Of a stretch of DNA of 21,121 nucleotides, positions 2,374 through 21,121 are shown in pieces. The position numbers and the translations under genes are program-made. Position 1 is the first letter of the stretch; each line of letters opens with the position of its first letter. Source of the DNA: a virus; the IMG/VR virus record IMGVR_UViG_3300009505_000084, positions 1-21,121 of that record. The stretch is one strand, 5' to 3'. The notes beneath the pieces were generated by a model. It was not told the DNA's origin and did no database searches. It was given only the letters and a program-made list of their open reading frames with translations.

Positions 2374-2374
2374 T

Positions 2375-3131: not shown

Positions 3132-3139
3132 CGGATTTT

Positions 3140-3167
3140 AGGTTGCTCACTCAACCTTTGGTACAAT
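3140..3167 (+). promoter_or_regulatory. Hairpin plus extended -10 promoter candidate before the nuclease/endolysin genes
   Basis: Bases 3140-3157 form a perfect 6-bp inverted repeat (AGGTTG / CAACCT) with a 6-nt loop. It is followed by TGGTACAAT at 3159-3167, a TGn extended -10 match with TACAAT for TATAAT. No good -35 is present. This 49-bp gap is one of the few non-coding gaps in the + strand gene run, so a promoter feeding the nuclease, endolysin and holin genes is reasonable. The hairpin lacks a T tract, so it is not a classical terminator. Confidence 0.35.
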
Positions 3168-3180
3168 TAACAACATCAAG

Positions 3181-3588
3181 ATGATAAAAGAAAATTACCA
3201 TCGACTGCAAACAGGCCAAGCTGGAGAATATCTAGCCGCGTCAGTGCTACAACGTCATTTCAAGACGATAGCTTTTCCCGATTTACCCGCGCCATACGAC
3301 CTTGTAGCAGAAAGCTACAGCGGTGATTTTCTGCGGTGCCAGGTGAAAACTGCTGACGCTGTGAGTGTGATTAATGGCTATAGATATTGGCAATACAACA
3401 CAGCAAAAGGAACATTGTGCTACACCGATGATGAGATAGATTTCTTTGCACTGGTTTGCCTTCCGCGAAGATTGGTTTGTTTTCAAGCGTTTGAGAATAC
3501 AACCGCGATGTCAAGACTCCGCGAAGATGATTTTACAGAGCGAACTGAGATGGAAACGCTTAACGAAGTTTTAGGTGAACACCTATGA
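3181..3588 (+). CDS. PD-(D/E)XK nuclease-like protein
   Basis: The 135-residue protein shows the layout of small PD-(D/E)XK endonucleases related to the intron-associated group (PF11645-like). It has GE at residues 15-16 in the first helix, PYD at 38-40 with the metal-binding Asp, then QVKTA at 54-58 supplying the (E/Q)-x-K pair. A hydrophobic strand after DEID (about 84-92, IDFFALVCL) also fits the family. It would be expected to cut or bind DNA in the cytoplasm. Finding it immediately before, and overlapping by ATGA with, an endolysin gene is unusual. It could be a free-standing homing-type endonuclease, a resolvase, or a host-DNA nuclease expressed late. The catalytic triad appears intact, so I think it is active, but the substrate is unknown. 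Confidence 0.6.
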   Translation: MIKENYHRLQTGQAGEYLAASVLQRHFKTIAFPDLPAPYDLVAESYSGDFLRCQVKTADAVSVINGYRYWQYNTAKGTLCYTDDEIDFFALVCLPRRLVCFQAFENTTAMSRLREDDFTERTEMETLNEVLGEHL

Positions 3589-3935
3589 ATGACTACAAAT
3601 ATTTCAAAATATCTGACTTTGACTGCCAAGAAACGGGGGTCAACTTTATGGAAGATGAATTTATTAAAAAACTAGATCATTTGCGCGAAGCCTGCGGGTG
3701 GCCGTTTGTTGTCACATCAGGATTTCGAGACACGTCACACTCTGCTGAAATTAACAAGGCGAATGGTGGCGGCTACCATACAAAAGGAGTGGCCGCAGAT
3801 ATAGCCGTATCAAACGGTAAGCAGAAGCATGACATTGTCAAACACGCCACTGCGATGGGTTTTTCGGTCGGAATCGCTAAGACGTTTGTACATGTTGACA
3901 CCCGCATGGACACCTCAGTCATCTGGACATATTAA
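3585..3935 (+). CDS. Endolysin, M15-family peptidase
   Basis: The 116-residue protein matches the small peptidase M15 (Peptidase_M15_3) fold used by many phages to cut peptidoglycan stem peptides. The opening FKISDFDCQETG is the typical DF(D/A)C..TG motif. It is followed by VVTSGFRD near residue 43, then YHTKGVAADI with zinc ligands His65 and Asp72, and FVHVDTR with the third ligand His103. The length is normal for a single-domain phage endopeptidase, and there is no signal peptide, so release would depend on the holin encoded next. The start overlaps the nuclease stop (ATGA). Its AGGT Shine-Dalgarno lies in a short AGGT/ACCT stem ending at the ATG, so translation may be coupled to the upstream gene. 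Confidence 0.85.
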   Translation: MNDYKYFKISDFDCQETGVNFMEDEFIKKLDHLREACGWPFVVTSGFRDTSHSAEINKANGGGYHTKGVAADIAVSNGKQKHDIVKHATAMGFSVGIAKTFVHVDTRMDTSVIWTY

Positions 3936-4316
3936 GTGAATATTTTAACGGGAATTTTTGGATCAGTCGCAGAGGTGGGAAAAACCTACTTGGCGAATAA
4001 AGCCGCAGTCAAAGCGGCCAAGCACGAAGCAACAATGTCCACTATCCAAAACAATGCAGACTGGGAATCGAAGATGGCTGATGCGTCAGCGTCTAGCTGG
4101 AAAGATGAGTTTTTTACAATTATTTTATCGGCTCCCATATTTTTCATAGGTTATTCAATTGCGGTTGATGATCCAACAATTGTGGTGAGAGTCAAAGACG
4201 GCTTAAACGCACTAAGCGAATTACCGGAATGGTATCAATACTTATTATTTATTGCAGTGTCAGCGTCTTTCGGTATTCGCGGAGCCGACAAGCTGATGAA
4301 TTTGAGGAAGAAGTAA
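3936..4316 (+). CDS. Probable holin (GTA/marine-phage 3TM-like family)
   Basis: The 126-residue protein starts at GTG directly after the endolysin TAA. The N-terminal half is amphipathic and Ala/Lys-rich. The motif SWKDE at residues 54-58 precedes a membrane segment (about 59-77), and EWYQY near 98-102 precedes a second one (about 99-115) ending SASFGIRGADK. The SWKDE...(P)xWYQY...SFGIR pattern recalls holins of the DUF3154/PF11351 type found in gene-transfer agents and marine phages. It would form lesions in the inner membrane that release the M15 endolysin encoded just upstream. Two clear membrane helices are visible; the first helix of the 3TM name may be the weak N-terminal stretch. The C-terminus is basic (NLRKK), as in many holins. 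Confidence 0.7.
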   Translation: MNILTGIFGSVAEVGKTYLANKAAVKAAKHEATMSTIQNNADWESKMADASASSWKDEFFTIILSAPIFFIGYSIAVDDPTIVVRVKDGLNALSELPEWYQYLLFIAVSASFGIRGADKLMNLRKK

Positions 4317-4317
4317 A

Positions 4318-5658
4318 ATGGCGCTAGAAACGACAACTTATATCGATGGATTGGTAGCAACTAACCCAACGTCCAGTGACAATGTTGGGGATGGTGATAA
4401 TCACATTCGACTTACAAAAGGTGCAATAAAGCAAACTTTTCCGGCCATCGCAGGTGCGGTCACGGCAACGCACACGCAGATAAACACTGGTATCGCACTG
4501 GCTAATACCGCAACAAATTTGAATACAGCTAATGCGGTTGTGAAAAGAGATGCGAGCGGTAATTTTGTTGCGTCTCAGATCACAGCGACCAGCATCACGA
4601 CTGGCAATATCACGATCACAGGCACCGTGACAGGCAGCCTCTCTGGAAATGCATCGACTGCGTCTACTGCCAATTTGGCAGTTACAGCAAATAAGTGGAC
4701 AACCGCTAGGTCAGTTACTCTTGGCGGCGATTTGACAGGTCATGTCACCATAGACGGTAGTTCTGATGTAGGACTAAGCGCCTACGTTGTTAATGACAGT
4801 CATAATCACACCATATCGACAATTGACGGACTGAGCGCCGAACTTACAAGAATTGAGGGTACTGTGTCTGGCGCGGCAGTGACATCCGCAGGGAAGTGGA
4901 CAACACCTCGCACACTATCCTTGGCAGGAGACATAACTGGGGCTGTCACGATTGATGGCAGTTCCAATGCAACGCTAAACGCAACTGTGTCTGACAACTC
5001 CCACTCGCACACAATTGCTAATGTCGCGGGATTGCAAGGTGCGCTCAATGCAAAGCTGGAGTCAACCTCAAACGCGGCAACTGCAACAACGCTCCAAACT
5101 GCACGTTCTATTTCTCTGGCAGGCGACGTTACAGGAAGCGCGTCTTTTGACGGCGGCTCCAATATAAGCATTAACGCTCAAGTTGTTAATGACTCCCACC
5201 TTCATACGCTTTCCACAATTGCAGGGTTGGATACTGCACTCGCAGCAAAGCTAGACAGTACCGCGTACACAGCTTCCGATGTACTTAACAAAATAAAAAC
5301 TGTTGACGGTGCAGGCTCTGGTCTTGACGCTGACCTTCTTGATGGTCTTTCTTCTGCAAGTTATGTGCAGACAACATCTTCATCGCTTACCGCTAACGGA
5401 TACGTTGCTCTGAACAACGGACTTCAACTGCAATGGGGGAGTGTCAGTATCGCTGGTAACGCGGTAAATGCTGCTGTCACATTTCCTACAGGATTCGGCA
5501 ACGCCTGTTTGCAAGTGGTCATATCGATGAAGGACACGGGCGTATCTACACAAGACAATTACTCACTTGGAACGTCAGCCTTCAGCACAACAGGTTTCAC
5601 AATTACTAATGGTGTTGGTGATGCAAGAACATTTACCTACTTTGCAATTGGTTATTAA
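4318..5658 (+). CDS. Tail fibre protein with tandem repeats and gp53-like C-terminal domain
   Basis: The 446-residue protein has a strong ribosome binding site (GAGGAAGAAG before ATG 4318). The N-terminus (ETTTYIDGLVATNPTSSDN...HIRLTKGAIKQTFP) is typical of phage fibres that attach to a tail through this region, followed by AVTATHTQINTG. From residue 126 come three repeats, spaced 65-67 residues, of the form (W)TTxRxxxLxGDxTGxxxxDGxSxxxxxAxVxxxSHxHTxxxxxGL. The C-terminus (LQWGSVSIAGN...VTFPTGFGNACLQVVIS...TTGFTI...FAIGY) matches the exposed tip domain seen in many fibres (gp53-like type), where receptor binding is expected. It follows the lysis cassette and precedes other tail genes. Confidence 0.85.
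   Translation: MALETTTYIDGLVATNPTSSDNVGDGDNHIRLTKGAIKQTFPAIAGAVTATHTQINTGIALANTATNLNTANAVVKRDASGNFVASQITATSITTGNITITGTVTGSLSGNASTASTANLAVTANKWTTARSVTLGGDLTGHVTIDGSSDVGLSAYVVNDSHNHTISTIDGLSAELTRIEGTVSGAAVTSAGKWTTPRTLSLAGDITGAVTIDGSSNATLNATVSDNSHSHTIANVAGLQGALNAKLESTSNAATATTLQTARSISLAGDVTGSASFDGGSNISINAQVVNDSHLHTLSTIAGLDTALAAKLDSTAYTASDVLNKIKTVDGAGSGLDADLLDGLSSASYVQTTSSSLTANGYVALNNGLQLQWGSVSIAGNAVNAAVTFPTGFGNACLQVVISMKDTGVSTQDNYSLGTSAFSTTGFTITNGVGDARTFTYFAIGY
4693..5277 (+). repeat. Three diverged ~200-bp repeats in the tail fibre gene
   Basis: Repeat units begin at about 4693, 4894 and 5089. Each encodes a TTxR...GDxTG...DGxS...SHxHT...GL module of roughly 47-65 residues. They are recognisable as protein but diverged at the DNA level, consistent with old duplication forming the shaft of a trimeric fibre. 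Confidence 0.75.
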
Positions 5659-5661
5659 TTA

Positions 5662-7218
5662 ATGGCATTTGTCCCGCTTCGGAAAATTGGCAGTGGCGGT
5701 ATCGTCACTGACCAAGACCCATACGATTTGGAATTGACACAGTTTCCAGACGGCAACAACGTGCAATTCCATGAAGGACGCATTGGTAAATCCTTGGGCC
5801 ACAGCATTTCAAACGCACTGGCGTTTGACCCGACGCATGTCCAAGGTTGGCGATACGCCGGTAACAACACAGTAATTATTGGATCGCTAAATAAGCTGTA
5901 CCGATATAACGGATCAGCCGTTGCTAACGTAACAAAGACAAGTGATGCGACTAACTATTCCAACTCGCCACGGTGGCAGTCAGAGCAGCTAGGCTTGGCG
6001 ATGATGCTTAATAACGGTAGCCAGACACCGCAGTACATGCTGCCTACGGGCGCACGATTCGCTGACTTACCTAACTGGCCGTCAACGGTTACAAGTAACT
6101 GCATAAAGCCCTATCGAAGTTTTCTAATAATGGCTGGCTATGAGACGGCTTCAACGAAGCATCCGTACACGGTGCGTTGGTCGGATGAATACAATCCGAC
6201 ATCCGTACCGGGCGATTACGACATCACATCAACGACTAATCTCGCTGGTGAGAATGTTCTCTCCGGCAACAACGGTGAGTTGATAGATCAAATGACGCTC
6301 AACAACTCGCAGATTATTTACGCTGAGTCGGGTGTTTTTGCGATGGACTTCATCGGCGCACCTTTTGTATTTAGTTTCCGTGAAGTGTTTGGGGATGACG
6401 GCATTATCAACAGAGGGGCTGTGGCTGCTTTTTTCAACAAGCACCTTGTTGTCGGCAACAATGATATCTATGTTCACGATGGCAATAGCAAAGAATCAAT
6501 TGTTGATAAGAGAGTGCGTAGAACATTTTTCAACGCCGTCCAAGACACCCGTTCAGTGTTCTGTCATACCGTGGAAGATAAATCAGAAGTGTGGATATGC
6601 TACGCCGATGAAGATGCTGACAATGTTTTAAGTGCAAACAGGGCGCTGGTTTACAATTGGGCGCAGAATGCCTTTACATTTATCGATTTGCCAAATGTTC
6701 GCGCACTGACATCCAGCGATGTGCTAGACACATCTGGCGGCTGGGATGTTAACAACCTCACTTGGGCAAACAGCAACGAGTATTGGTCAACGTCTAGCCT
6801 CAACACGACAAACAAAGGTATCGGGGTTTATGCCGCTGGTGCTGAAAACAGCAAGCTGTACTTAATGAACAGCACTCACGGTGCGGCTGGTCAGCCTCTT
6901 AATGCATATCTGGAAGCTACTAAAATAGACTTAGATACTGTGCTTGGAAAAGCGAATAACGCCATCAAGCAGATGGTTGGAATACTTCCCCAGATCGAAG
7001 GACAAGGTGAAGTGTCGATTTCTATCGGTGTTAGCGATTCACCGCAAGGCGGCATACGGTGGAAACCACCAGTGATTTACAACATCGAGTCAGATCACAA
7101 AATTGACGTTAGAACGTCTGGACGTTATTTCGCGCTCAGAATTGAAAGTAATCACGTTGAAGATTTTTGGCGACTCACGGGGTTAGATATCGATGTGTCT
7201 GAGGTAGCTGGTCGATGA
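5662..7218 (+). CDS. Tail-associated structural protein (connector/stabilisation-like)
   Basis: The protein has 518 residues from ATG 5662, three bases after the tail fibre stop. The opening FVPLRKIGSGGIVTDQDPYDLELTQFPDGNNVQF followed by EGRIGKSLG resembles the start of virion proteins in short-tailed phages that seal the portal or form the tail nozzle (comparable in layout to the P22 gp10 stabilisation family). Repeated short strands such as VIIGSLNKLYRYN, RSFLIMAGYE and HLVVGNNDIYVHDG suggest a beta-propeller-like body. A conserved-looking RWSDEYNPTSVPGDYD segment lies near residue 175. No signal or membrane segment is seen. The stop overlaps the next start as ATGA. The family name is uncertain; a tail structural role is well supported by its neighbours. 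Confidence 0.6.
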   Translation: MAFVPLRKIGSGGIVTDQDPYDLELTQFPDGNNVQFHEGRIGKSLGHSISNALAFDPTHVQGWRYAGNNTVIIGSLNKLYRYNGSAVANVTKTSDATNYSNSPRWQSEQLGLAMMLNNGSQTPQYMLPTGARFADLPNWPSTVTSNCIKPYRSFLIMAGYETASTKHPYTVRWSDEYNPTSVPGDYDITSTTNLAGENVLSGNNGELIDQMTLNNSQIIYAESGVFAMDFIGAPFVFSFREVFGDDGIINRGAVAAFFNKHLVVGNNDIYVHDGNSKESIVDKRVRRTFFNAVQDTRSVFCHTVEDKSEVWICYADEDADNVLSANRALVYNWAQNAFTFIDLPNVRALTSSDVLDTSGGWDVNNLTWANSNEYWSTSSLNTTNKGIGVYAAGAENSKLYLMNSTHGAAGQPLNAYLEATKIDLDTVLGKANNAIKQMVGILPQIEGQGEVSISIGVSDSPQGGIRWKPPVIYNIESDHKIDVRTSGRYFALRIESNHVEDFWRLTGLDIDVSEVAGR

Positions 7219-7463
7219 GTTATCAGCTAAGTCCAACATCGGCAAGCACAGTCACTGACCTTCGGGGATGGATCAGTAACGAATTAATCAGAGTTGGTTT
7301 ATCAATCTCGACTCAGTCGCAAACAACAACAATCCCCGTAATCAATGCAGAACCTTCAAAGCCTCAAATCGGTCAGGTTGTTTTTGCTGACGGTACAAAT
7401 TGGAACCCCAGCGGAGGTCGTGGTCTTTATTACTACGATAGCGGTTGGACAAAAATAGCATAG
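7215..7463 (+). CDS. Small tail-associated protein
   Basis: The 82-residue protein starts in an ATGA overlap with the preceding gene. Its C-terminal half, PSKPQIGQVVFADGTNWNPSGGRGLYYYDSGWTKIA, contains the P..GxxxxADGTxWNPxxGxGxYxYxxGxW pattern often found at the ends of phage tail or fibre proteins as a small beta module. Here it stands alone after a short helical N-terminus (LRGWISNELIRVGLS). The coupling suggests it is made in step with the 518-residue protein and may bind it. No enzymatic motif is present. Confidence 0.6.
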   Translation: MSYQLSPTSASTVTDLRGWISNELIRVGLSISTQSQTTTIPVINAEPSKPQIGQVVFADGTNWNPSGGRGLYYYDSGWTKIA

Positions 7464-7472
7464 GATAAAATC

Positions 7473-9047
7473 ATGGGTTTATCATTCGGCAGATCATCAA
7501 GTCGCAACTCTTCTAACAGCAACGCCAGCACTTTTGTTGATCCGAATCAGCAACCGTTTCGCCAGGATTTGATGCGCCAAGCGCAGACTTTGAACGCGCA
7601 GGGTATGCCTGTGGAAAACGTGGCGGGCCTCAACGAAACACAACTAAACGCAATGGGTATGGCTAACCAAGGCGGGCAAATGCAGGCTGGTGCGGGTGCA
7701 AATGTCATGGGTCTTGGTGCCGCACAGACGGCAGGCACGGGCGCTGCTATGAACTACGCAAGCGGTGCTATGGGCGGTGGCGCTGGCGCAGGTATTAACA
7801 CGGCGATCGGCGCAGGTAACTCATACGCTAATGGCGTTATGGGCTTAAACGCGGCGCAGGGCGGCGGTGTGAATCACAACATGGCCTCCAACATGGCGGG
7901 TAATGCCAGCCAGATGGGTGCCGCCAACAACAGCGGCATAAACATGGGCAACGCGCAGGCCATCGGTGGTCTGGCGCAAAACTCAACAGCCGCATCTGCT
8001 AACGGGTTTAACGCTAACACCGCTACTCAGGCAGGCGGCTTGGCGACTGGTGCAGGTATCGCCCAGAACCAGGGCATCAACACTAACAACCTCAACAGCT
8101 TTATGAACAACAGTGTGTTGAACGGTCAGATCGATGCGGCCAGCAGAGATATCACTCGCAATCTCAACGAGAACCAGCTAACAGGCATTGCGTCTCAAGC
8201 GGCTGGCACAGGCAACAGCGGGTCAAGTCGCGCTGGTGTTGCGGCAGGTATCGCGATGCGCGGTGCGGCTGATCGGGTTGGCGACATATCGGCCAACATG
8301 CGTGGACAGGCTTACAACACCGGCTTAAACATTGAAGCTGGTCGCGCTAACCAAAACGCGCAACTTCAGCAAGGTGGTAATCAATTTAACGCAAATGCTC
8401 AGAACGCAATGACAAGTCAAGGTCTGGGTATCGCCGGTAATCAATCGAGTCAGAACGCTGGTTTTCAGCAGCAGACAAATCTTGCAAATCAGAACGCTGG
8501 CAACGCAATGATGAACACTGGTCTGAACATCGCCGCAGATGCGGCATCTCAGAACGCTGGTTTTGATCAGCAGGCCAATAGCGCGAATATGAACGCTCAG
8601 AACCAATTAATGGGTCAAGGCTACCAGATTGGCGCAAGCCAACTGCAAAACAATCTCAACCGATCACAGCAAGCTGGCATGGGCAATCAAAATGCATTTA
8701 ACTCAGCGCGACAGTTTGGCGCAGGCATGGGCCAGAACGCTTTCAACAGCAACATGCAGAACCAGCAGTTCGGTGCAAACATGGCTCAGAACATTGGTCA
8801 GCAGGGCGTTAACAACATGCAGACAGGCCAGAACATGATGAACACAGGCATTGGCATGTCGCAGGGCGCAGGCGATGCTCAGAGAGCGTATGAGCAACAG
8901 CTTTACGCACAGCAATTCCAGCAGGGTATGTCACCATACAACAGCTTGAACTTCTATAACGATATAGTTGGTTCGCCAAATAATCTCAGCAACGCAACTT
9001 CATCCAGCACTGGTAGACAAAGCAGTTCGAGTTTCGGATTCGGATAA
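7473..9047 (+). CDS. Asn/Gln/Ala/Gly-rich repetitive virion protein, candidate ejection protein
   Basis: The 524-residue protein has an AGGAT ribosome binding site. The N-terminus (residues 1-60) is Ser/Asn-rich and then reads VDPNQQPFRQDLMRQAQTLNAQG. From about residue 60 onward the composition is extreme: Ala, Gly, Asn, Gln and Met dominate and charged residues are scarce. Residues 294-392 are three tandem 33-residue units (each starting QNA), with a fourth diverged unit before them. The C-terminus returns to ordinary composition (QRAYEQQLYAQQFQQGMSPYNSLNFYNDIVG). Low-charge helical repeat proteins of this kind, placed before other internal-virion-type genes, are typical of proteins packaged in the capsid and ejected with DNA. 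No domain name can be assigned from sequence alone. Confidence 0.6.
   Translation: MGLSFGRSSSRNSSNSNASTFVDPNQQPFRQDLMRQAQTLNAQGMPVENVAGLNETQLNAMGMANQGGQMQAGAGANVMGLGAAQTAGTGAAMNYASGAMGGGAGAGINTAIGAGNSYANGVMGLNAAQGGGVNHNMASNMAGNASQMGAANNSGINMGNAQAIGGLAQNSTAASANGFNANTATQAGGLATGAGIAQNQGINTNNLNSFMNNSVLNGQIDAASRDITRNLNENQLTGIASQAAGTGNSGSSRAGVAAGIAMRGAADRVGDISANMRGQAYNTGLNIEAGRANQNAQLQQGGNQFNANAQNAMTSQGLGIAGNQSSQNAGFQQQTNLANQNAGNAMMNTGLNIAADAASQNAGFDQQANSANMNAQNQLMGQGYQIGASQLQNNLNRSQQAGMGNQNAFNSARQFGAGMGQNAFNSNMQNQQFGANMAQNIGQQGVNNMQTGQNMMNTGIGMSQGAGDAQRAYEQQLYAQQFQQGMSPYNSLNFYNDIVGSPNNLSNATSSSTGRQSSSSFGFG
8253..8648 (+). repeat. Tandem 99-bp repeats coding 33-residue units
   Basis: Three in-register units run 8352-8450, 8451-8549 and 8550-8648, each beginning with codons for Q-N-A and carrying G-x-x-I at positions 24-27. 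An upstream unit, 8253-8351, is diverged but keeps the TGLNI segment in register. Thirty-three is three times eleven, the spacing of hendecad helices, although no clear hydrophobic stripe is evident. Confidence 0.75.
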
Positions 9048-9059
9048 GGAATAGATAAA

Positions 9060-10259
9060 ATGGCAAGATATTTTGACACGCTCCGCGACCCCACAGAAGC
9101 GGAAGCGAGAGAAAACGAACTATATCGCGCGGATAACGCTCGTCTTGCGTCTATTAACGAAGCGTCAGACATCCGTAATCTGCCTGTGCGAAAGGCCAGT
9201 AGTCCCGTCGAAGAGCAGGCACTTCTACGCGCTGGTTTTCAAAACAACGGAATTCCAGGTGAGTTTGTGTCTCCAGTTCGCAACCTCACCACTGAAATGC
9301 AGCAATACGAGTTGGCAAAGCGTGAAGCTCGTCAAGCGGTGTACGACGAGCAAGGCAACTCAACCATGTTTAAGATTGGCGACACGTTGGCTGACACGGG
9401 CCGATTTTTCATGTCGCCACTCTTCTGGTTGTCCGGGGAAGATAGCAGCAAGTACGACCCGTCAGAAATTAGGAAAAGCGGATATCGCGCACAGCTTGAA
9501 GCTTCAGTCGGGTACACAAACGCATTGTATGAAAAGTCAATTGCACACGCACAACAGCGCGACGCAATCCGTGAAGCTAACACTCGCAACGATATGACTA
9601 TGCGAAAGCAAACACGCGACCTAAATTCTCCAGTAAGCCCGCTAGGGAAGTTGGTGTTCGACTACGCTAGGTTGAATAATCGTATGGAAGACTTTAACTC
9701 CGGAAACGCTCTCAGAATGCAGCAGCTTACGCAAGAAGCAAGAGTTAACGCGGGGCAAGGTAAGTTTGTTGGGCGCGGCAATAGGTTTATGGAAAAACAA
9801 ACATACGACGATCTAACAGTAGTTGGAAATAGATTCACAGATGTCAGCGAAGACATTGGCGCTGCGTACATGAACTACCGACAACTGATAAAAGCGTTAG
9901 ACGCGCAGACAGGTATCGGTGATATTTCTGCTGTGTTTAATTACATGAAAACACTCGATCCAGATTCTGTCGTTCGTGAGGGTGAGTTTGCGTTAGCCAA
10001 AGACGCGGCGGGTTTGTTTCAGCGTCTATCAAACATTGCAGAAGAAGCCAAGACAGGTAAAGGGCTTACCTCTAAAGCAAGAGCGGAGATGCGTAACCTG
10101 GCGACAGACCTTATTGAGTCCTATGAAGATAAGTACGAGTCGGTTCGTGATAAAGAGGAAGCGCGTATCAGATACTTGTCAGACAATGACGAAGATGTAA
10201 CAAACTTCTTGGGTGATTTTAAACAGTTATATCCCAACGCAACAATCGAACCTATTTAA
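9060..10259 (+). CDS. Probable internal virion protein
   Basis: The 399-residue, mostly helical and charged protein has an AAGGA ribosome binding site about eight bases before ATG 9060. It has no signal peptide and no strong membrane segment; a short hydrophobic stretch (GRFFMSPLFWLSG) occurs near residue 115. The most recognisable part is DISAVFNYMKTLDPDSVVREGEF at about 288-310. The K-x-LDPxSVVREGEF motif recurs in phage structural proteins, often in long ones thought to enter the cell with DNA. The C-terminus ends in a linker-like acidic region and QLYPNATIEPI. Its place between the repetitive protein and the 715-residue protein suggests an ejected complex of several partners. The role is inferred. 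Confidence 0.55.
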   Translation: MARYFDTLRDPTEAEARENELYRADNARLASINEASDIRNLPVRKASSPVEEQALLRAGFQNNGIPGEFVSPVRNLTTEMQQYELAKREARQAVYDEQGNSTMFKIGDTLADTGRFFMSPLFWLSGEDSSKYDPSEIRKSGYRAQLEASVGYTNALYEKSIAHAQQRDAIREANTRNDMTMRKQTRDLNSPVSPLGKLVFDYARLNNRMEDFNSGNALRMQQLTQEARVNAGQGKFVGRGNRFMEKQTYDDLTVVGNRFTDVSEDIGAAYMNYRQLIKALDAQTGIGDISAVFNYMKTLDPDSVVREGEFALAKDAAGLFQRLSNIAEEAKTGKGLTSKARAEMRNLATDLIESYEDKYESVRDKEEARIRYLSDNDEDVTNFLGDFKQLYPNATIEPI

Positions 10260-10270
10260 AGGTGTGTTAA

Positions 10271-12418
10271 ATGGCTCAAGCAAAAATTAACGGTCAGATA
10301 GTAGACGTACCTGACAATTTCTTTGAAATGTCTGAACGAGATCAGCAAAAGTTTGCCAACCGAACAGCGGCCAGGCAAACATCTGGCAACCCCAGCCAGA
10401 TGATGCAGGACATCACCGCATACGGTAAATACTTAGAGCGCCAAGACATACAAGACGCTGTGGCTGACAACAATAGTCTCCAAGACTTTGCGTTATCTGC
10501 CGGGGTTGGCGTGAATAAATTCGGCATGGGCGTTGCTGACCTGCTTGGTTTTGGCCCCGGAGAACAGACAGCAAGGCAGCTTGAGACTGTTGATAGCGTG
10601 TTGGCAGAGAATTCGCCAGTAGCAAACTTTACAGGGCGCATGGCGGGAGGTGTGTTAGCCGCAGTCCCTACCACAGCAGCAGCAACCTACGCAGCCCCAC
10701 AGACTTTGGGTCTGTTAGGTCGCGGTGCGATTTCTGGCATTGCCGGGGCTGTTGAGGGCGCGGCTGAGATTCCGTTTTCCGATGAGTCGCGTATTGGTAA
10801 CAGTGCTATGGCAGGGGTTGGTGGTGTAATCAGCGATCCTGCTATGACCGTTCTTCAGCAAGCTATCAAGAGAATTCCCTTCGGTGCGCTAGTTGATCGC
10901 GTGGCTGGATTGAGTGACACAATTAAAGATAAAGCTTCCGCTGCGATGCGTGAAATGGGGTATGACTACAGCAGCCTGAAACAATCTACTAGGCAAATAC
11001 TTGAGAGCATAGGTCGTTCTGAAGATGTTGACGTTGCTATCCAAAAAGCAGTTGAAAACGAGCAGGGTTTCAACCTTACAGCGGGTGAGGCAAGCGGTGA
11101 TTTCGGTCAGATATCCGCAGAGCAATCGGCTGTCCGTCAGTCGCAAGAAGCTGGCAACATGATGCGTGACTTTAAAAATCAACAGAATGAAGACATCACC
11201 GTAAGAAGTGGTCAGTTAGCCGAAGAGATGGGAGGTACTCCTGGTCTGAATAACGAAGGTGTAGGATCGTCTTTGAAAGAGGCACTCGACCAAGCCAAGC
11301 AAGATGACAAAGATGGTTATGTTGCAATGTACGACAGAGCAAAACAGCTTGCTGTTGAAAACGATGTTGATATACCCCTAAATCAATCTGTCATAGCCCA
11401 ATCTTTCTATGACATCTCAGGCGACCATTTAGGTACGCACCAGGGTTTGTTAGAAGACATTGGTAGAAAGCTGGCGCAGTACGATATCCTTGATCCCGCA
11501 AGGTTTGAAGGTGATGTCCCAAGAAGGGGTTTGGCTGGTGACTTTAATTCTTTAAGTGTGGCCAATGTTGAAGACTTTATTAAATTCTTAAACACGAAAT
11601 ATTCGCCTACTGATAGCACAGGCAACATGATATTAGCACAACTAAAACAAGCGGTTAGCACTAACGCTGATGAAGTTTTGGCCAGCGCAGTTGATGGTAA
11701 ATCTGGACGCGAGTTTTTGAAACAAGCCAGACAAGCTAGAAGCGCATTCAAAGAATATCAATCTATGTGGCAATCTAAAGATGTTCTTGAAAGTATTACG
11801 GGTGTAAAAGTTGGCACGGACACGCCAATCAAAAACCCAAGCGACATTGTAAAATTGGTAACAAGGTCGCCAGAAAACGCAAGAACTGTTATACAAACAC
11901 TAATGGCAAACGGCAACGAGCAAGCGGTGGCAGATTTACGGACTTACATACTAAAAGATATTTTTGATCAAGCTGTGAACCCGAACGTCATTAAAGGTGA
12001 GTTAGGTTCTTTTCAAGGCACTAAACTTAACACATTAATTAAAAATAAATTAGATGTTTTGCAAGCCGTCTTTACACCAGAGCAGTTTGCTAACCTCAAA
12101 GGTTTTCAGGATGCAGTTAAAAAAGCAACAATACATCCAGAAGGCTCCGTAAATTATTCAAACACTGCTACAAAAATATTAGACGCTGTATTCAATATTA
12201 TGTCAGGGCTACAGTACACAATGGGTGCGGGTTTTAAAGAACTTGGCGATCAACGTGTGGTTAAGAATGCCATTAAAACTAATGGTAGAGCCACTGTTGA
12301 TCACATACTGAAACTAGATAAAAACCACATAAAACTTAATGCGCTACTGCGTCAAGGGTTAGAACAATACAGCTTTGAAGATCAAGCCGCATTGTCAGAT
12401 TCGGAGTACATGGATTAA
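10271..12418 (+). CDS. Large internal virion / DNA-ejection-type protein with glycine-rich hydrophobic segment
   Basis: The 715-residue protein starts at ATG 10271 after a GGTGTG tract. The N-terminus MAQAKINGQIVDVPDNFFEMSERDQQKFAN is a short beta/helix module common at the front of phage internal proteins. Residues of about 122-167 (GRMAGGVLAAVPTTAAATYAAPQ...GAISGIAGAVEGAAE) are Gly/Ala-rich and hydrophobic with G-x-x-x-G spacing, and could insert in a membrane during genome delivery. The remainder is a long helical, charged region with no catalytic motif that I recognise. The stop and the next start overlap as TAATG. It is probably packaged in the capsid and ejected with the DNA; this is an inference from architecture and neighbours. 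Confidence 0.55.
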   Translation: MAQAKINGQIVDVPDNFFEMSERDQQKFANRTAARQTSGNPSQMMQDITAYGKYLERQDIQDAVADNNSLQDFALSAGVGVNKFGMGVADLLGFGPGEQTARQLETVDSVLAENSPVANFTGRMAGGVLAAVPTTAAATYAAPQTLGLLGRGAISGIAGAVEGAAEIPFSDESRIGNSAMAGVGGVISDPAMTVLQQAIKRIPFGALVDRVAGLSDTIKDKASAAMREMGYDYSSLKQSTRQILESIGRSEDVDVAIQKAVENEQGFNLTAGEASGDFGQISAEQSAVRQSQEAGNMMRDFKNQQNEDITVRSGQLAEEMGGTPGLNNEGVGSSLKEALDQAKQDDKDGYVAMYDRAKQLAVENDVDIPLNQSVIAQSFYDISGDHLGTHQGLLEDIGRKLAQYDILDPARFEGDVPRRGLAGDFNSLSVANVEDFIKFLNTKYSPTDSTGNMILAQLKQAVSTNADEVLASAVDGKSGREFLKQARQARSAFKEYQSMWQSKDVLESITGVKVGTDTPIKNPSDIVKLVTRSPENARTVIQTLMANGNEQAVADLRTYILKDIFDQAVNPNVIKGELGSFQGTKLNTLIKNKLDVLQAVFTPEQFANLKGFQDAVKKATIHPEGSVNYSNTATKILDAVFNIMSGLQYTMGAGFKELGDQRVVKNAIKTNGRATVDHILKLDKNHIKLNALLRQGLEQYSFEDQAALSDSEYMD

Positions 12419-12942
12419 TGAATTTATTATCACTTATATCAGGGGCGACTGAATCGATAGCGGCCAAAACAGCGGGGCTAAACTCTGCGATGGATTCCTT
12501 GTATGCAGATAGCCCTCTTGGCAAAATTGAAGAAGCTTTCCAAGGTGTTGAAGATAAAATGCTTGGCTCTGCAACGCATCGAGCCTTTGCGGGTGGCGAC
12601 TTCGGCTCTGGCGCTTCAGGAGCGTCTGACTACACCGACATAAGTATGGGTGGCGCGATAGATAACTCTGGCTATGTGGACGCGACATCGGGCCTTCAAG
12701 GTGTAATGTCTCAAGCTGGAATTATGAACCCCGCAAGCTCACAGCTTCAAGGTGGTCTGCCAGTAATGCCCTCTGCGCCTCCAAGCCTTCAAGCTGGCAA
12801 TGCCGCCCCACCCCCTGGCTATCTCAAAGAGTATGAAGATAACCTGGCATCTGTCCCAGACGCGCCACCTGTCCCTGCGATTGAGCCTGTGCTGATCGAC
12901 GAGGACGAAGACCTAATTCAAGCTGGCGCATTAGCGGAGTAA
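12418..12942 (+). CDS. Gly/Ala/Pro-rich phage protein of unknown function
   Basis: The 174-residue protein starts in a TAATG overlap with the 715-residue protein. The N-terminus (residues 1-55) could form a helix; residues 55-130 are rich in Gly, Ala, Ser and Pro and probably disordered. The C-terminal 40 residues contain proline clusters (PDAPPVPAIEPVLI) followed by a very acidic DEDEDL stretch. No motif or membrane segment is seen. The context suggests a virion-associated linker or scaffold for the two large flanking proteins. I cannot name a family. Confidence 0.55.
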   Translation: MNLLSLISGATESIAAKTAGLNSAMDSLYADSPLGKIEEAFQGVEDKMLGSATHRAFAGGDFGSGASGASDYTDISMGGAIDNSGYVDATSGLQGVMSQAGIMNPASSQLQGGLPVMPSAPPSLQAGNAAPPPGYLKEYEDNLASVPDAPPVPAIEPVLIDEDEDLIQAGALAE

Positions 12943-12945
12943 TAG

Positions 12946-15834
12946 ATGTCTGTATTTATGTCGGTAGGAAAGAAACTTGCGGAAGGCGCACAGACTCGCA
13001 TGGCGAGGGCGCAGGATAGAGCTTCTTATGAAAAATCACAATTACCATCTAAAAAGTTAAAAAGTTTAAAATCTGACGATCCTATTAAAGTGTTACGCAA
13101 AGAGATAAAAAAGAAGCGCGACCAGCGGCAGTCGAACCAGCGTCAAAGACAACTTCCTATTGAGTTTCGGTTAAAGCAATTTAAAGATAAAAAAGAAAAA
13201 GACAAATTTACGCAGAACGTGTTGGGGCATCCAAATTCTAAGTTTTGGGGCGCTCAGGACATTTCTTTAATAAAACAAGAATTAGATTTCGGTAAAGATT
13301 ATTCGAATCACAATTTTAGAATAAAGAAAGCTAATTTAAAAGCTACTGTTGCGGCGTTAAAAAAGCAGGGTTTTAAGATTGATCATACAAGCAAGCATAA
13401 CAATTTAGTGTCTAGTTATTATATGAATAAGGATGGTGTTAGATACCGAATATCTGACCACGATCTTCCAGAGACACCAGAAAGAATAAACAACAGGGAG
13501 CAAGGGCTTGGCGGGAACTGGGATCAGGAAATAATAATAGACGCAAACACATCTATCGACTCTGTTATTTCCGAAGTATCTGACTATAACGCTCAGTTCA
13601 AAGACCCCACAAGCAAAAACATATTAGCTGGTTCTGCCGCAACTGCTGTAGGCGCAGGAACAGTCCTGGCTCCCCAAGACGCAGAAGCTGGTTTCTTTAG
13701 CCAAGCTGTTAAAGCTGCCGGAAATCTCCAACGCAAAACTGGTAACGCCGCAGGCTTTAAGAACGACCTCACAGGCAAAGGGCAGGTCAAGCCTGACGAG
13801 TTAAAGGCTATGGGCTTTGACGAACACTTTGGTGATCGCAAAGACATTACCAAGGAAGAGGTTCAGCAGTTCATTAATGATAACCAGGTACAGATTAAAG
13901 AGACACGGTTGGGTATATTGCAGGAATATGCTGTTAGACCTGATCCTGACGAGGGTTTTATTGTTTATAACTCAACAAACGGCAACCATATTTCCTCACA
14001 CGCTACGCAAGAGCTTGCCGCCGATAAAGCACTAGATTTAAATGTGAATAGTGACAACTCTAAATTTGTAGATTACACCCTAGAAGGTGGTGACAATTAC
14101 CGTGAGTTGCTGATGTCTTTGCCTAGAAAGGCGCATCCAGACCAAGGTAAACTGGATGAACTTTTGAGGTCACAAGACAGTGAGGATTATCTTTCAGATT
14201 TGCTGCAATCGAGCAGAATAGCCAGGGATGAGTGGGTTGCGTTAGATCAAAAACACAGCGCCCTTGTCTGGTCAGACGCTGCTGGGGGCGACGGCCTTAC
14301 TGGGGCTAAACTTGAGGAAGCAAACCAGCTATACAAAAAAGTACAAGCTGCAAAGGTCAAATGGAAACAGATTGATATAAGCTTGGCTAAAAGAAGAGGG
14401 GATTTGAGAGAGCAGATTGTCGATCTCCAGCATGAGATTAAACAAGAGAAGCGTGGACAAGAATTTGTAAACGCTGGTCACTTCGACGAGCCTAACATCC
14501 TTGCACACCTACGCATGAAAGACCGTGTAGATGCTGACGGCAACAAGACCCTGTTGATTGAAGAAGCGCAGTCCGATTGGCATCAGAAAGGTGCGGATGT
14601 TGGGTACAAGTCGAAAGATGGAAGTGTGAGCAAACCTCTTCAAGATGAAATGGATCGAATTGAGCAAGAGATGGGCAGGATTTACGAGGCTTCAAGGACT
14701 TCCGACGATCCAGATGTGTGGATGCCTTTAAATGAGCAGTTTGATAATTTAAACAGTGAATTAGCCAGATTAAAATATAAGGCCGGTGGAGGTGTCCCAG
14801 ACGCGCCGTTTAAGACCGATGACAAATCGTCTTGGTACAACCTAGCGATGAAGCGCGGTCTACTTGAGGCAATAGAGGGTGACTACGATAAGTTGGCATT
14901 CACCACTGGCCGTCAGCAGGCAGAACGCTATGACCTCAGTAAGCAGATTAATGAGGTTCGCTTAGGAGGTAATGAGCGAGACGGATTTACGGTATCTGCA
15001 TTCAACAAGAATGATAGCCCAGTGATTATGGAGTCAATCGACTCGCTCGATGAACTACCTAACCTGATTGGTAAAGATGCCGCTAAGTCATTAGTGGATC
15101 AACCGCTGACGGACTCAACCTCTGGGAAGGTTAAGATTCTAGCCGGTCAAGACCTCAGTGTTGGCGGTGAGGGTATGAAGCAGTTCTATGACCGCACACT
15201 ACCTAACACTCTTAACAAGCTGGTGAAGCAGGATGGCGTTAAGGTTGGTCAGAGTGGGTTGTTAAAAGATGATAATTTAGATATCCACCAAGTGATAGAT
15301 GATACCGATGAAAGAATAGATTGGCTTGATGTTAAAAGTCAGGTAGAAAACTACGGTAATCAAAACCCTGCTGTTCTTGAAAAGTACGATGCGTTTGTGT
15401 CTAAGTACAAGCCCAAAACAATTAACACAGACACAGTTCACTCAATCAACATTACCCCTGAGATGCGTGACCGTGTTAAGAAGGGTCTGCCGTTGTTCGC
15501 TCAAGGTGGTGCGGTTGTTGGTGCTGGCGCGTTGTTCTCCCCAGAGAATGCACAGGCCAGCGTTGCCAGGCCACAACAAGACGGCATATTGAAAGATACA
15601 GCCGACGTGGCACTAGAAACCATGTCGGGAATTAACCGTGCCGTAGTAGATGGAATAAACTTTTTAACATCTGATCAGATAAATGCGGTCTTGAACTTAT
15701 CGGGAAGCGATAGGAGAATACCTAACCTGTACGATTTACCCTATCTAGGCGGTGCAACAAGGGGTAATTACATGGATAAAGGTTTGCCAAGGGAGATTGT
15801 TCGGACAGGAAGCGAGTTTTTATCCCCACTGTAA
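12946..15834 (+). CDS. Polyvalent-type large phage protein (multi-domain, probably ejected)
   Basis: The 962-residue modular protein starts at ATG 12946. Residues 1-70 are very basic. A small domain around 100-220 contains the motif YRISDHDLPETPER (167-180). A glycine-rich hydrophobic stretch ends in PQDAEAG (226-250). The next module, KGQVKPDELKAMGF onward (278-320), is typical of polyvalent phage proteins. Then come EEAQSDWHQKG (540-550), TTGRQQAERYDL (653-664), GGEGMKQFYD (740-749) and VHSINITPEM (831-840), a set of blocks that recur together in phage and prophage proteins of the polyvalent class. A second glycine-rich stretch ends in PENAQA (about 852-875). Such proteins are thought to travel with the DNA and act against host systems, but no specific activity is shown here. 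It is the last gene before attP, a typical cargo position. Confidence 0.65.
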   Translation: MSVFMSVGKKLAEGAQTRMARAQDRASYEKSQLPSKKLKSLKSDDPIKVLRKEIKKKRDQRQSNQRQRQLPIEFRLKQFKDKKEKDKFTQNVLGHPNSKFWGAQDISLIKQELDFGKDYSNHNFRIKKANLKATVAALKKQGFKIDHTSKHNNLVSSYYMNKDGVRYRISDHDLPETPERINNREQGLGGNWDQEIIIDANTSIDSVISEVSDYNAQFKDPTSKNILAGSAATAVGAGTVLAPQDAEAGFFSQAVKAAGNLQRKTGNAAGFKNDLTGKGQVKPDELKAMGFDEHFGDRKDITKEEVQQFINDNQVQIKETRLGILQEYAVRPDPDEGFIVYNSTNGNHISSHATQELAADKALDLNVNSDNSKFVDYTLEGGDNYRELLMSLPRKAHPDQGKLDELLRSQDSEDYLSDLLQSSRIARDEWVALDQKHSALVWSDAAGGDGLTGAKLEEANQLYKKVQAAKVKWKQIDISLAKRRGDLREQIVDLQHEIKQEKRGQEFVNAGHFDEPNILAHLRMKDRVDADGNKTLLIEEAQSDWHQKGADVGYKSKDGSVSKPLQDEMDRIEQEMGRIYEASRTSDDPDVWMPLNEQFDNLNSELARLKYKAGGGVPDAPFKTDDKSSWYNLAMKRGLLEAIEGDYDKLAFTTGRQQAERYDLSKQINEVRLGGNERDGFTVSAFNKNDSPVIMESIDSLDELPNLIGKDAAKSLVDQPLTDSTSGKVKILAGQDLSVGGEGMKQFYDRTLPNTLNKLVKQDGVKVGQSGLLKDDNLDIHQVIDDTDERIDWLDVKSQVENYGNQNPAVLEKYDAFVSKYKPKTINTDTVHSINITPEMRDRVKKGLPLFAQGGAVVGAGALFSPENAQASVARPQQDGILKDTADVALETMSGINRAVVDGINFLTSDQINAVLNLSGSDRRIPNLYDLPYLGGATRGNYMDKGLPREIVRTGSEFLSPL

Positions 15835-18615: not shown

Positions 18616-19959
18616 TTATTTTATCGCCTCAACCACGGACAACAGCGTATCTTGAGTATCTTTTTTTGCTGACAGCGCATCCAGCACGGCACTGTCTGCG
18701 GTGTCTTTTGTCAAGATATGAAATATCCGAACAGGCTTGGACTGACCTTGCCTGTGAAGTCTTGCGTTGAACTGCTGGTACAACTCCAGTGACCAGGTCA
18801 GGCCAAACCATACAATCATGTTACCGCCTTTTTGAAGATTCAGGCCATGTCCTGCTGACGCGGGGTGAGCAAACAAGATAGGTATCTCGCCAGCATTCCA
18901 TCGGTCAATCACTGTTTGGTCTTTGCCGATAACCTCCGCGTTAGGAAACAGTAACTTGAGTTCAGCCAAGTCTGATTTGAAGTTGTAGGCGACAAGAACA
19001 GGCTCGTTCGTGCTGTCGATAATCTCTTCCAAAGCGTCAAACTTCTCGCAATGACATCGCACATACTCACCATCCTCGTCATAAACATTGCCGTTGGCTA
19101 TCTGCATCAGCTTTCCAATTTGCACAGCGGCGTTTACGGCAAGTATCTCACCACCATGATATGCGATTAAAAAATCTGACTTCATTTCCTCATAAACTTT
19201 TCTGGCCTTGATTGGCAACTCAACCTCAACCGTCACATCGATACGGTCTGGGAGTGTTAAATAATCTTCTGCATTCATCACCAGCGCGATGTCTGCCACT
19301 TGACGATGTATAGCATCAGCGCGGTCAGGTTTGACGGCCCACTGATTCCACTGTGGATTACCCACGGCGGTGCAGTATTTGTTGAGAAACTTACCCCTGG
19401 TGTTCTCCAAACGCTTTCCTTTGTCGAGCAGATAGAACTGCGGCCACAACTCAAGCAGAGAGTTTGGAGCAGGAGTGCCAGTTAGCAAAACCATACGGCT
19501 AACCTTACCCAAGATTTTCCGCAGTGACTTCCATCGCTTAGATGTGTGAGACTTAAAGCTGCTGCTCTCGTCAATCACAACGCAGTCGTATGGCCACGAC
19601 TGGCCCAAATGCTCGACGAGCCACGGTATGTTTTCACGATTAATAATGTGGATGTCGGTGTCTTCATCGATTGCCGCTTTACGCTTTTTCGGCGTTAAAC
19701 CGCTTAAAATCGTGTAATTTAACGCGCTCGTATGCTTCCAGTTGTGTATCTCGGTAGGCCAAGTGTGATTTGACACGCGCAGGGGCGCGATAATTAATGT
19801 CTTTTTGATCACTTTTTGATCAATTAGGTCAGTTAAGGCTGTGAGCGTGGATACTGTTTTGCCCAATCCCATGTCGATCCAGAGCGCGGCCTTGGGGTTA
19901 TCTTTTATGAATTCCACGGCTCTGCGCTGGTAAGGGTGTAGGTTTTCTCGGTTCAACAT
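18616..19959 (-). CDS. SNF2-type DEAD/DEAH-box helicase (phage replication module)
   Basis: The 447-residue protein carries a complete superfamily 2 motor. The Q-like LHPYQRRAVEF comes at 7-17, Walker A DMGLGKT at 29-35, TLIIAPLRV at 54-62 (motif Ia) and the Walker B-like VVIDESSSFK at 127-136, a DES variant of DEAH. Next are LLTGTPAPN at 158-166 (motif III), FAHPASAGHGLNLQ at 363-376 (motif V) and YQQFNARLHRQGQ at 394-406 (motif VI). This compact SNF2-like form is common in phages, usually beside a VRR-NUC nuclease, as here. It should translocate on or remodel DNA during replication or recombination in an ATP-dependent manner. The ATG (19959) overlaps the end of the nuclease gene by seven bases, implying one transcript. 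Confidence 0.9.
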   Translation of the reverse strand: MLNRENLHPYQRRAVEFIKDNPKAALWIDMGLGKTVSTLTALTDLIDQKVIKKTLIIAPLRVSNHTWPTEIHNWKHTSALNYTILSGLTPKKRKAAIDEDTDIHIINRENIPWLVEHLGQSWPYDCVVIDESSSFKSHTSKRWKSLRKILGKVSRMVLLTGTPAPNSLLELWPQFYLLDKGKRLENTRGKFLNKYCTAVGNPQWNQWAVKPDRADAIHRQVADIALVMNAEDYLTLPDRIDVTVEVELPIKARKVYEEMKSDFLIAYHGGEILAVNAAVQIGKLMQIANGNVYDEDGEYVRCHCEKFDALEEIIDSTNEPVLVAYNFKSDLAELKLLFPNAEVIGKDQTVIDRWNAGEIPILFAHPASAGHGLNLQKGGNMIVWFGLTWSLELYQQFNARLHRQGQSKPVRIFHILTKDTADSAVLDALSAKKDTQDTLLSVVEAIK

Positions 19960-20231
19960 AACAGTGCTTTGCCTTTTTCAATATCGTCGATGACGTGTAC
20001 CGTCCAGCCTACCGCTAACAGCCTTCTATGAATTGCCTGCTGGTATGGCGTTGCCTTTTTACCAGGTGCTTTAAACTCGATAATAACCAGTGAGCCTTTC
20101 CGAAAATACATTCGATCTGGAACTCCTCGCTGGCTAGGGCTGACCCACTTGAAACTCAGCCAGCCCTGCGACTTGGCGTAGTCTGTGACTTTCTTCTCGA
20201 CCACCGACTCACGCAAAAGTGGAATCCTCAA
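19953..20231 (-). CDS. VRR-NUC domain nuclease
   Basis: The 92-residue stand-alone VRR-NUC protein contains a leading E in VVEKKV (Glu12), the RGVPDRM motif (35-41, Asp39), and IEFKAPGKK (51-59) giving Glu52 and Lys54, followed by Gln64 in the downstream helix. These are the catalytic residues of this PD-(D/E)XK branch, which includes Holliday-junction or structure-specific nucleases. The first in-frame start is TTG at 20231, overlapping the methyltransferase end by 23 bases; a TTG at 20216 or a GTG at 20204 are possible. It overlaps the helicase start, and the pair probably acts together in replication or recombination. Confidence 0.85.
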   Translation of the reverse strand: MRIPLLRESVVEKKVTDYAKSQGWLSFKWVSPSQRGVPDRMYFRKGSLVIIEFKAPGKKATPYQQAIHRRLLAVGWTVHVIDDIEKGKALLC

Positions 20232-21121
20232 TTGTATGGTGTAATGTTACCCATGCTTTTGCGGCTGTTTGTGGGACTACTCCGTTTCCCAAGAGCCTAA
20301 GTCTGTCCACCCTGTCGGCACACCCATCAACCACTCGACCCAATCTGGGTTCAGGTGGCCAGCGCATACCGATCTGCCACCCGCCTTGTTCACTATCACA
20401 GTTGTCAGTGATTCCTGAGTTCCCTTCTTGGTTGGGTCGCTCCGATCCTGGTATCCCAGTCTCGCTTCGTGGGCTGATGGAGTCGGCCAATTCGTTGGCT
20501 CCTGATAAACCGCCGCCACATTGAGATTCTGCATATGGTTGTCCCTTTGTAGATGCTCCCTGCCTGTCACGCTGCGGTAATCCCTCGCGGCCGGTGTCGG
20601 CAAAGATGTCTCTGCCATCTTTACCTGCATGGTCAGATTCGCTGGCCGGGTTTTCCCTACATTCTTTGGATGCCCTGACGCCCTCATTCGGTTTTGATAG
20701 TTTTCGTAACTCTCGTCCACCTCCATGACCCGTGGGGTTAGCCACATTTTTACCGCTATTGCTAGGTTGTCGGGAACCTTTTTGTTTTTTGATTTCGGGT
20801 CTGTCTTCCTCTCCATCCGCGCTTTCCACGTTTCGTAAGTTTGTTCCGGCATCATCGCTTGAGGTGTCGGCCATGATGTAGACTCGTTTTCTTTGGTGTG
20901 GTGCGCCAACTTCACGCGCTGAGAATATTCCCCACGCTGAACGATAACCATCTTCTTCCAAGTCGCTGATGACGCTGGAGAGTCCAAGCGAGATGTGACC
21001 TTCGACATTTTCAAAGAAGCACTGAACAGGTCTAATTGTTTCAACGTGCTTTCTGATGTACGGCCAGAGGTGTCTTGGGTCATCTCCTCCTTTGCGCTTT
21101 CCTGCTACTGAGAAAGGTTGG
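20209..21121 (-). CDS. C5 cytosine DNA methyltransferase (5' end beyond window)
   Basis: The frame is open from the window edge to TGA at 20211-20209, 303 residues visible. It begins at QPFSVAGKRKGGDDPRHLWP, that is, inside the PCQ-x-FS catalytic motif IV; the last base is consistent with a Cys codon, and the motif's proline and SAM-binding motif I lie outside. CFFENVEGH at 34-42 is motif VI, and GAPHQRKRVYIMAD is motif VIII. RLRLLGNGVVPQ near the C-terminus is motif X. Between VIII and X, the target-recognition region is polar, low-complexity and repetitive (ADT, ANP, FADT, LADS turns). It would methylate cytosine in a specific DNA site, probably protecting phage DNA. A second ORF is nested in the +1 frame. 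Confidence 0.9.
   Translation of the reverse strand, partial: QPFSVAGKRKGGDDPRHLWPYIRKHVETIRPVQCFFENVEGHISLGLSSVISDLEEDGYRSAWGIFSAREVGAPHQRKRVYIMADTSSDDAGTNLRNVESADGEEDRPEIKKQKGSRQPSNSGKNVANPTGHGGGRELRKLSKPNEGVRASKECRENPASESDHAGKDGRDIFADTGREGLPQRDRQGASTKGQPYAESQCGGGLSGANELADSISPRSETGIPGSERPNQEGNSGITDNCDSEQGGWQIGMRWPPEPRLGRVVDGCADRVDRLRLLGNGVVPQTAAKAWVTLHHTIEDSTFA
20277..21083 (-). CDS. Overlapping +1-frame ORF inside the methyltransferase gene (candidate overprinted gene)
   Basis: The 268-codon ORF is read on the same strand as the methyltransferase, one base downstream in frame. AAGGAGG lies only two bases before the ATG (21083), closer than usual. The protein has repeated motifs WPTP (71-74), WLTP (114-117), LPTP (161-164) and WPTP (199-202), and ends with LNPDWVEWLMGVPTGWTDL. 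Residues 71-113 and 114-156 align without gaps with 17 of 43 identical. From general knowledge, (L/W)PTP...VEWLMG(L/F)P segments occur as real protein in some phage and actinobacterial C5 methyltransferases, so this frame resembles a known sequence type. It may be an expressed overlapping gene, a frameshift extension, or a fossil of one. Translation is unproven. Confidence 0.4.
   Translation of the reverse strand: MTQDTSGRTSESTLKQLDLFSASLKMSKVTSRLDSPASSATWKKMVIVQRGEYSQRVKLAHHTKENESTSWPTPQAMMPEQTYETWKARMERKTDPKSKNKKVPDNLAIAVKMWLTPRVMEVDESYENYQNRMRASGHPKNVGKTRPANLTMQVKMAETSLPTPAARDYRSVTGREHLQRDNHMQNLNVAAVYQEPTNWPTPSAHEARLGYQDRSDPTKKGTQESLTTVIVNKAGGRSVCAGHLNPDWVEWLMGVPTGWTDLGSWETE
20616..20873 (-). 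repeat. Two adjacent 129-nt repeats in the dual-frame region
   Basis: The units are 20873-20745 and 20744-20616 on the minus strand. In the +1 frame both encode (W)xTPxxMxxx..YE....RM.....PK...K..P.NL...VKM. In the methyltransferase frame the same bases show only scattered matches. Several conserved +1-frame codons differ only at their third position. Confidence 0.7.

Follow-up and report, generated by a model that had tools for sequence, protein, structure and literature searches.

A nested +1 frame under coding selection in a viral C5-cytosine DNA methyltransferase gene and the proposal of an enzyme made of two overlapping proteins

Why does a viral methyltransferase gene contain a second long reading frame inside the first, and is this frame used? 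The DNA analysed here (the window, a 21-kb virus record of 21,121 nucleotides) ends within a minus-strand gene for a C5-cytosine DNA methyltransferase (alpha, frame 0), the 5' end of which is cut off; what remains encodes motifs IV (in part) to VIII, then a spacer and then motif X. Nested in it, in frame +1 (each beta codon begins one base past an alpha codon start), lies beta, a frame of 268 codons from the ATG at 21083 that encodes W/LPTP cassettes followed by motif IX (Table 1). In ordinary C5-methyltransferases motifs I-VIII and X form the large domain, and the small domain, located between motifs VIII and X, contains the target-recognition domain (TRD) and motif IX and makes the specific DNA contacts. 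The match of alpha to PF00145 was above the curated cut-off and identified a catalytic domain with motifs IV-VIII; motif I lies beyond the window edge, but was found in complete relatives (e.g. in alpha of locus L036). As the beta frame is free of stops from 21104 down to 20277, close to the window end at 21121, the true 5' ends of both alpha and beta may fall outside the window.

Table 1. Features of the nested methyltransferase locus (window positions)
Feature	Position	Strand	Evidence or remark
Alpha ORF, C5-cytosine DNA methyltransferase	20209..21120	-	PF00145 E 1.4e-17, residues 1-106; phrog_363 E 8.9e-37
Beta, nested +1-frame ORF (proposed specificity subunit)	20277..21083	-	phrog_1008 E 2.4e-17, residues 2-262; purifying selection
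Shine-Dalgarno-like AAAGGAGGAG, directly 5' of nested ATG	21084..21093	-	sequence; short spacing
Alpha motif VIII (VGAPHQRKRVYIMA)	20869..20910	-	sequence
Alpha spacer, dual-coded with beta cassettes	20355..20868	-	80% DEKRNQSGPHT, 14% hydrophobic
Beta cassette 1 (WPTPQAMM...AVKM), 43 aa	20745..20873	-	sequence
Beta cassette 2 (WLTPRVME...QVKM), 43 aa	20616..20744	-	17/43 identical to cassette 1
Beta cassette 3 (LPTPAARD...)	20490..20603	-	same cassette in L006
Beta cassette 4 (WPTPSAHEARLGYQDRSDPTKKGTQ...)	20355..20489	-	same type in L001, L004, L008, L016
Beta motif IX (LNPDWVEWLMGVPTGWTDL)	20298..20354	-	beta dN/dS 0.08, alpha 0.26 there
Alpha motif X (RVDRLRLLGNGVVPQTAAKAW)	20251..20313	-	alpha dN/dS 0.17, beta 0.80; phrog_1008 positions 294-318

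On its 3' side, alpha is overlapped by the gene of a 92-aa endonuclease-like protein (19953-20231; phrog_93, E 1.6e-21), which is followed by that of a SNF2-type helicase (18616-19959; PF00176; phrog_62, E 1e-156). The left part of the window (139-15834) holds large ORFs (609, 518, 524, 399, 715 and 962 aa) that mostly lack a Pfam match, the exceptions being a gp53-like tail fibre end (4318-5658) and a PD-(D/E)XK endonuclease (3181-3588).

Between the positions of motifs VIII and IX, beta encodes four W/LPTP cassettes, each 38-45 aa long. A first-pass annotation had pointed to two adjacent 129-nt repeats in the nested ORF, and these proved to be cassettes 1 and 2. Its count of 17/43 identical residues between the repeats in the nested frame, against 6/43 in the methyltransferase frame, was reproduced, and none of 20,000 shuffles reached 17. 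We likewise recovered the nine identical residues (T, P, R, P, K, P, N, L and K) whose codons vary at the third nested position only, and at nested codon positions 1 and 2 none of the 17 differs. Also present were all four PTP-type motifs and the VEWLMG ending that it had listed, the latter as LNPDWVEWLMG. The same cassette types recur among relatives in differing combinations, and that of cassette 4 was also found in other contexts (L049 and L054). In many annotated methyltransferases the cassettes are visible as 'ADT/ANP' repeats, the alpha-frame shadow of the beta W/LPTP motifs (20209-20961 in the window, and in relatives), and the 'GRVxDG' upstream of motif X is likewise the alpha-frame shadow of beta WVEWLMG; in the window the bases of beta motif IX read LGRVVDG..RVD in alpha.

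No family was found for beta in Pfam or NCBIfam. It matches the PHROG family phrog_1008 ('DNA methyltransferase') over profile positions 61-281, and the end of alpha aligns to a later part of this profile, at 294-318. Since both match in order, beta and the end of alpha are, judged by these profile alignments, consecutive pieces of one known protein that is here split over two frames. A single-frame form of the same arrangement occurs in mycobacteriophage Filuzino, in which gp68 is one ORF with motifs I-VIII, PTP cassettes and motifs IX and X; its C-terminal half matches phrog_1008 (E 3e-82), and the protein also matches the alpha families phrog_363 and phrog_116. The in-frame homologues of the WPTP/VEWLMG sequence that had been mentioned in the first-pass annotation thus exist, as phrog_1008 is matched by the nested protein and by the single-frame Filuzino methyltransferase. 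Motifs IX and X and the recognition position are found together on one polypeptide only in such single-frame relatives (in one of them, L122, PF00145 covers residues 1-347); the window divides them, motif X being encoded by alpha and motif IX and the cassettes by beta. Other phages have tandem pairs, each annotated as two methylases (Wile gp75/74, Vash gp32/33, Upyo gp54/53 and Samy gp49/50), and in Gordonia phage SchottB and Rhodococcus phage ReT1v-1 the cassettes alone are nested, with motifs IX and X in alpha.

Two further variants were observed. In a mycobacteriophage-type group (L095 and L100-L158) the cassettes are split between two frames of one gene, some being located in beta ahead of stops and others in alpha, in-frame with motifs IX and X. 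Another phage methyltransferase type (L325, L324 and L084, with the N-terminus ..YYNEIDP..) also has a nested frame, with a diverged motif IX (e.g. LNPxHSRWLMG).

The beta query retrieved 80 virus loci, nearly all of which align in both frames to the window proteins with the same +1 offset. Loci were sorted according to which frame encodes motifs IX and X, except for 27 that were incomplete or had motifs unreadable by the patterns used. Both frames were open in all 75 loci in which beta holds motif IX and alpha motif X, the type to which the window belongs, and the stops in the +1 frame of homologues that would have spoken against a nested gene were therefore absent. Where motifs IX and X are both in beta, alpha was riddled with stops 3' of motif VIII in 17/17 loci (4-37 stops in those listed). 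With both motifs in alpha, beta contained stops in 33 loci, both frames were open in one, and there was one exception. This classification indicates, at the level of reading frames, that alpha is held open across the cassettes only where it must reach motif X. The 'exchange of frames' suggested earlier was also borne out, in that motifs IX and X and some of the cassettes occupy different frames in different phages.

A beta query can only find beta, and this retrieval bias was tested with a query consisting of alpha motifs I-VIII only. In 66 of the 73 evaluable loci motif X was in alpha and motif IX in an open beta, and three more were dual-open. Among phages chosen by alpha similarity, the nested frame of EBPR podovirus 2, RcPutin and ctgrD200 is open and shows W/LPTP-like motifs across the spacer, and Estave1 has its cassettes in alpha and stops in beta. 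Using one genome per bacterial and archaeal species, we found 76 of the 80 bacterial-genome loci with WVEWLMG to be nested likewise, in phyla that include Bacteroidota, Proteobacteria, Bacillota, Actinomycetota, Planctomycetes and Acidobacteria, and an exact-motif scan gave at least 350 relatives, which is a lower bound. RefSeq annotates alpha alone in E. coli PT62, though beta is open. In a single locus of the 80 (L167, Paenibacillus macquariensis) WVEWLMG is in the frame of the methyltransferase core. In L322 (E. coli PCP07014) the annotated alpha has an internal stop and the nested frame has another nearby, and the pair looks as if it decayed together.

Selection on the two frames was assessed in several ways. 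In 52 distinct relatives (6,747 spacer codons) stop codons were counted against synonymous shuffles that keep one of the two proteins. If only beta were preserved, 278 +/- 14 alpha stops would be expected in the spacers, and if only alpha were preserved, 87-137 beta stops; none was observed in either frame, and the third frame of the same spacers contained 377. For pairwise counts 31 disjoint pairs were used to reduce pseudo-replication. Spacer differences at alpha positions 1/2/3 numbered 190/60/45 (of about 1,098 each), so that alpha position 1, which is beta position 3, takes most substitutions; between the window and its relatives they were 396/141/86. This pattern was reversed in the motif X zone (22/14/104), and flanking single-frame control ORFs showed the ordinary one (rates of.086/.050/.321 at positions 1/2/3). 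Overlap-aware counts gave dN/dS values of about 0.27 for beta and 1.51 for alpha in the cassette zone; those for the motif IX and X zones are listed in Table 1. These ratios are estimates, as the disjoint pairs are still mutually related and only alignable cassettes could be counted. The codon-position and dN/dS results place selection on beta in the cassettes, on alpha in the core and motif X, and on both in the motif IX zone, as far as substitution patterns can tell. The criterion for same-strand overlapping (overprinted) genes, coding selection on both frames, is met, and the substitution bias towards the nested frame and the protein-level constraint or dual coding that the first-pass annotation had inferred were both recovered in the spacer. 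It had also held that the spacer merely tolerates the nested frame; mere tolerance does not describe the spacer, however, since alpha is kept free of stops there and can thereby reach motif X.

Could the nested frame be a by-product of the codon bias and composition of the methyltransferase gene? The flanks of beta over the motif VIII and X zones are indeed constrained mostly by alpha (beta dN/dS about 0.8), but the complete lack of beta stops, the reversed codon-position pattern in the spacer and the natural controls provided by the frame of motif X leave this explanation next to no credibility. As the source of the nested frame, chance or codon bias was ruled out by the shuffles and dN/dS.

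We propose that the locus encodes a phage C5-cytosine DNA methyltransferase as two overlapping proteins, a reading to which we assign a probability of roughly 0.84; its expression and activity are inferred, in the absence of protein, ribosome-profiling or methylation data. Alpha would be the catalytic large domain, consisting of motifs I-VIII, a hydrophilic linker without conserved sequence and motif X, and beta an array of cassettes of about 38-45 aa followed by motif IX, which is what ordinary C5-methyltransferases would have as target-recognition domain between motifs VIII and X. Because the split coincides with the boundary between the large and the small domain of these enzymes, alpha and beta are proposed as separate subunits, each of which would have its own translation from a shared mRNA before they join to form a single enzyme. 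Individual cassettes, or pairs of them, may be swappable target-recognition modules, making the enzyme perhaps multispecific, and its purpose may be to shield phage DNA against host restriction. That the cassettes are recognition modules is an inference from their position and from the single-frame relatives, and is supported neither by a solved structure nor by a known specificity. The AF2 model of the single-frame L122 (pLDDT 73.8) aligns over its entire length with M.HhaI (Z 21.8, 252 residues, 3.4 A), with low confidence in the cassette part; that of beta alone (L036, from a 39-row alignment; pLDDT 53) could not be interpreted. The beta alignment, run as a profile against the PDB, gave no match up to E 10, which is no proof of a new fold.

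Alternatively, beta may be a real protein with another task, for instance an inhibitor or an anti-restriction factor, alpha being complete with its recognition domain in the spacer. Such an arrangement is conceivable, as the predicted TRD of M.EcoHK31I has been placed in the large subunit (PMC3404938). The alpha spacer, however, shows no amino-acid constraint, consists for 80% of polar or small residues and lacks motif IX, and the same cassettes and motif IX occur in-frame between motifs VIII and X of single-ORF methyltransferases, which makes it improbable that alpha suffices by itself.

If alpha and beta are two subunits, beta translation could be independent of alpha, because Shine-Dalgarno-like sites and overlapping starts are present, although ribosome-profiling data are lacking and the start region is cut off in the window. 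In 37/65 loci a Shine-Dalgarno-like site lies 5' of the beta frame's first ATG (controls, 13-21%), and in 43/65 (e.g. L012, L018 and L037) this ATG overlaps an alpha GTG start as ATGTG; the MSWL-type (L074, L082 and L096) has its two starts at a distance of 4 nt (ATGAATG or GTGAATG). A single ribosome-binding site may thus serve both frames. The nested ATG of the window is not universal (M at that position in 32/51 relatives), and the relatives suggest, by their sequences, that beta would start near alpha's own start. The same region bears on another possibility, programmed ribosomal frameshifting after motif VIII, which would yield a single alpha-beta fusion in place of two subunits. Beta lacks stops upstream over most of the length of alpha, and just one +1 shift would suffice in tandem relatives with motifs IX and X in beta. 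In the window type motif X is back in alpha, however, and a +1 followed by a -1 (or +2) shift would be required; this return of motif X is the reason for which we rank frameshifting low, as unlikely if slightly less so than a self-sufficient alpha. The independent beta starts, with their Shine-Dalgarno-like sites and overlapping ATGTG or ATGAATG starts, and the separate starts that annotators assign to tandem pairs also speak against it.

Extended beyond this locus, the proposal of two overlapping subunits would mean that a large share of the C5-methyltransferases of phages and prophages are multispecific enzymes that depend on two subunits, with an unannotated +1-nested gene for the specificity subunit, that cassettes are shuffled as dual-coding modules, and that frame shifts of motifs IX and X interconvert nested, tandem and single-chain forms; we consider this somewhat probable, with clearly less confidence than the reading of the locus itself. 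If true, many genes whose annotation names a single 'DNA cytosine methyltransferase' give rise to two proteins, and it is the unannotated one that determines the DNA sequence to be methylated. The second subunit would then be lost from copies that are codon-optimised or recoded, which would appear inactive, and such false inactivity could lead specificity databases and phage engineering astray. As an example of overlapping genes the arrangement is exceptionally clean and widespread, and it brings its own controls, since the same protein parts occur in nested, tandem and single-frame form and frame openness follows the frame of motif X.

The nested ORF itself has been annotated before. In Paenibacillus phage Diva the same ORF is listed inside the methyltransferase gene as gp50 ('g49 internal gene'), and in Bloom as gp57, as hypothetical or as a second 'DNA cytosine methyltransferase', and the protein belongs to phrog_1008. 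In the open-access papers searched we found no account of this nested arrangement in phages, of its dual coding or of its presence throughout the family.

Consecutive recognition modules are known in a different setting. Trautner et al., whose 1996 study is cited in PMC12707154, are said to have described multispecific C5-methyltransferases of the Bacillus phages SPR, phi3T and SPbeta; these reportedly have several consecutive recognition modules of ~40 aa between motifs VIII and IX, where the window type has its cassettes as putative modules, but consist of one polypeptide in one frame. As for nesting, Lee, Kam and Shaw reportedly found in 1995 that the gene of the M.EcoHK31I small subunit also lies inside the large-subunit gene, in another frame; if so, the principle is already known from one enzyme.

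Functional split C5-methyltransferases have been described for M.AquI, M.EcoHK31I and M.SssI fragments, and the specific DNA contacts of these enzymes have been assigned to the small domain (PMC3404938). M.EcoHK31I, a two-polypeptide enzyme (YGGCCR), has motifs I-VIII and X on the large polypeptide and motif IX on the small one (PMC3404938), similar to alpha and beta. It differs in that its predicted TRD is on the large chain, whereas in the window the alpha spacer is unconstrained and the constrained cassettes are in beta, and in that it belongs to a restriction-modification pair, whereas the window type is found in phage and prophage genes. M.AquI and BsuMI-type enzymes, with motifs I-VIII and the C-terminal part on two chains, are like the tandem relatives (Wile gp75/74, L049, L054 and L074). 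In M.AquI, however, the small subunit carries both motif IX and motif X, as does beta in 17 tandem-type relatives; in the window alpha has motif X, and the one frame lies completely within the other. Relative to these systems, the novelty appears to lie in the complete nesting, in a TRD array read from the nested frame, in the rule set by the frame of motif X, and in the breadth of the arrangement.
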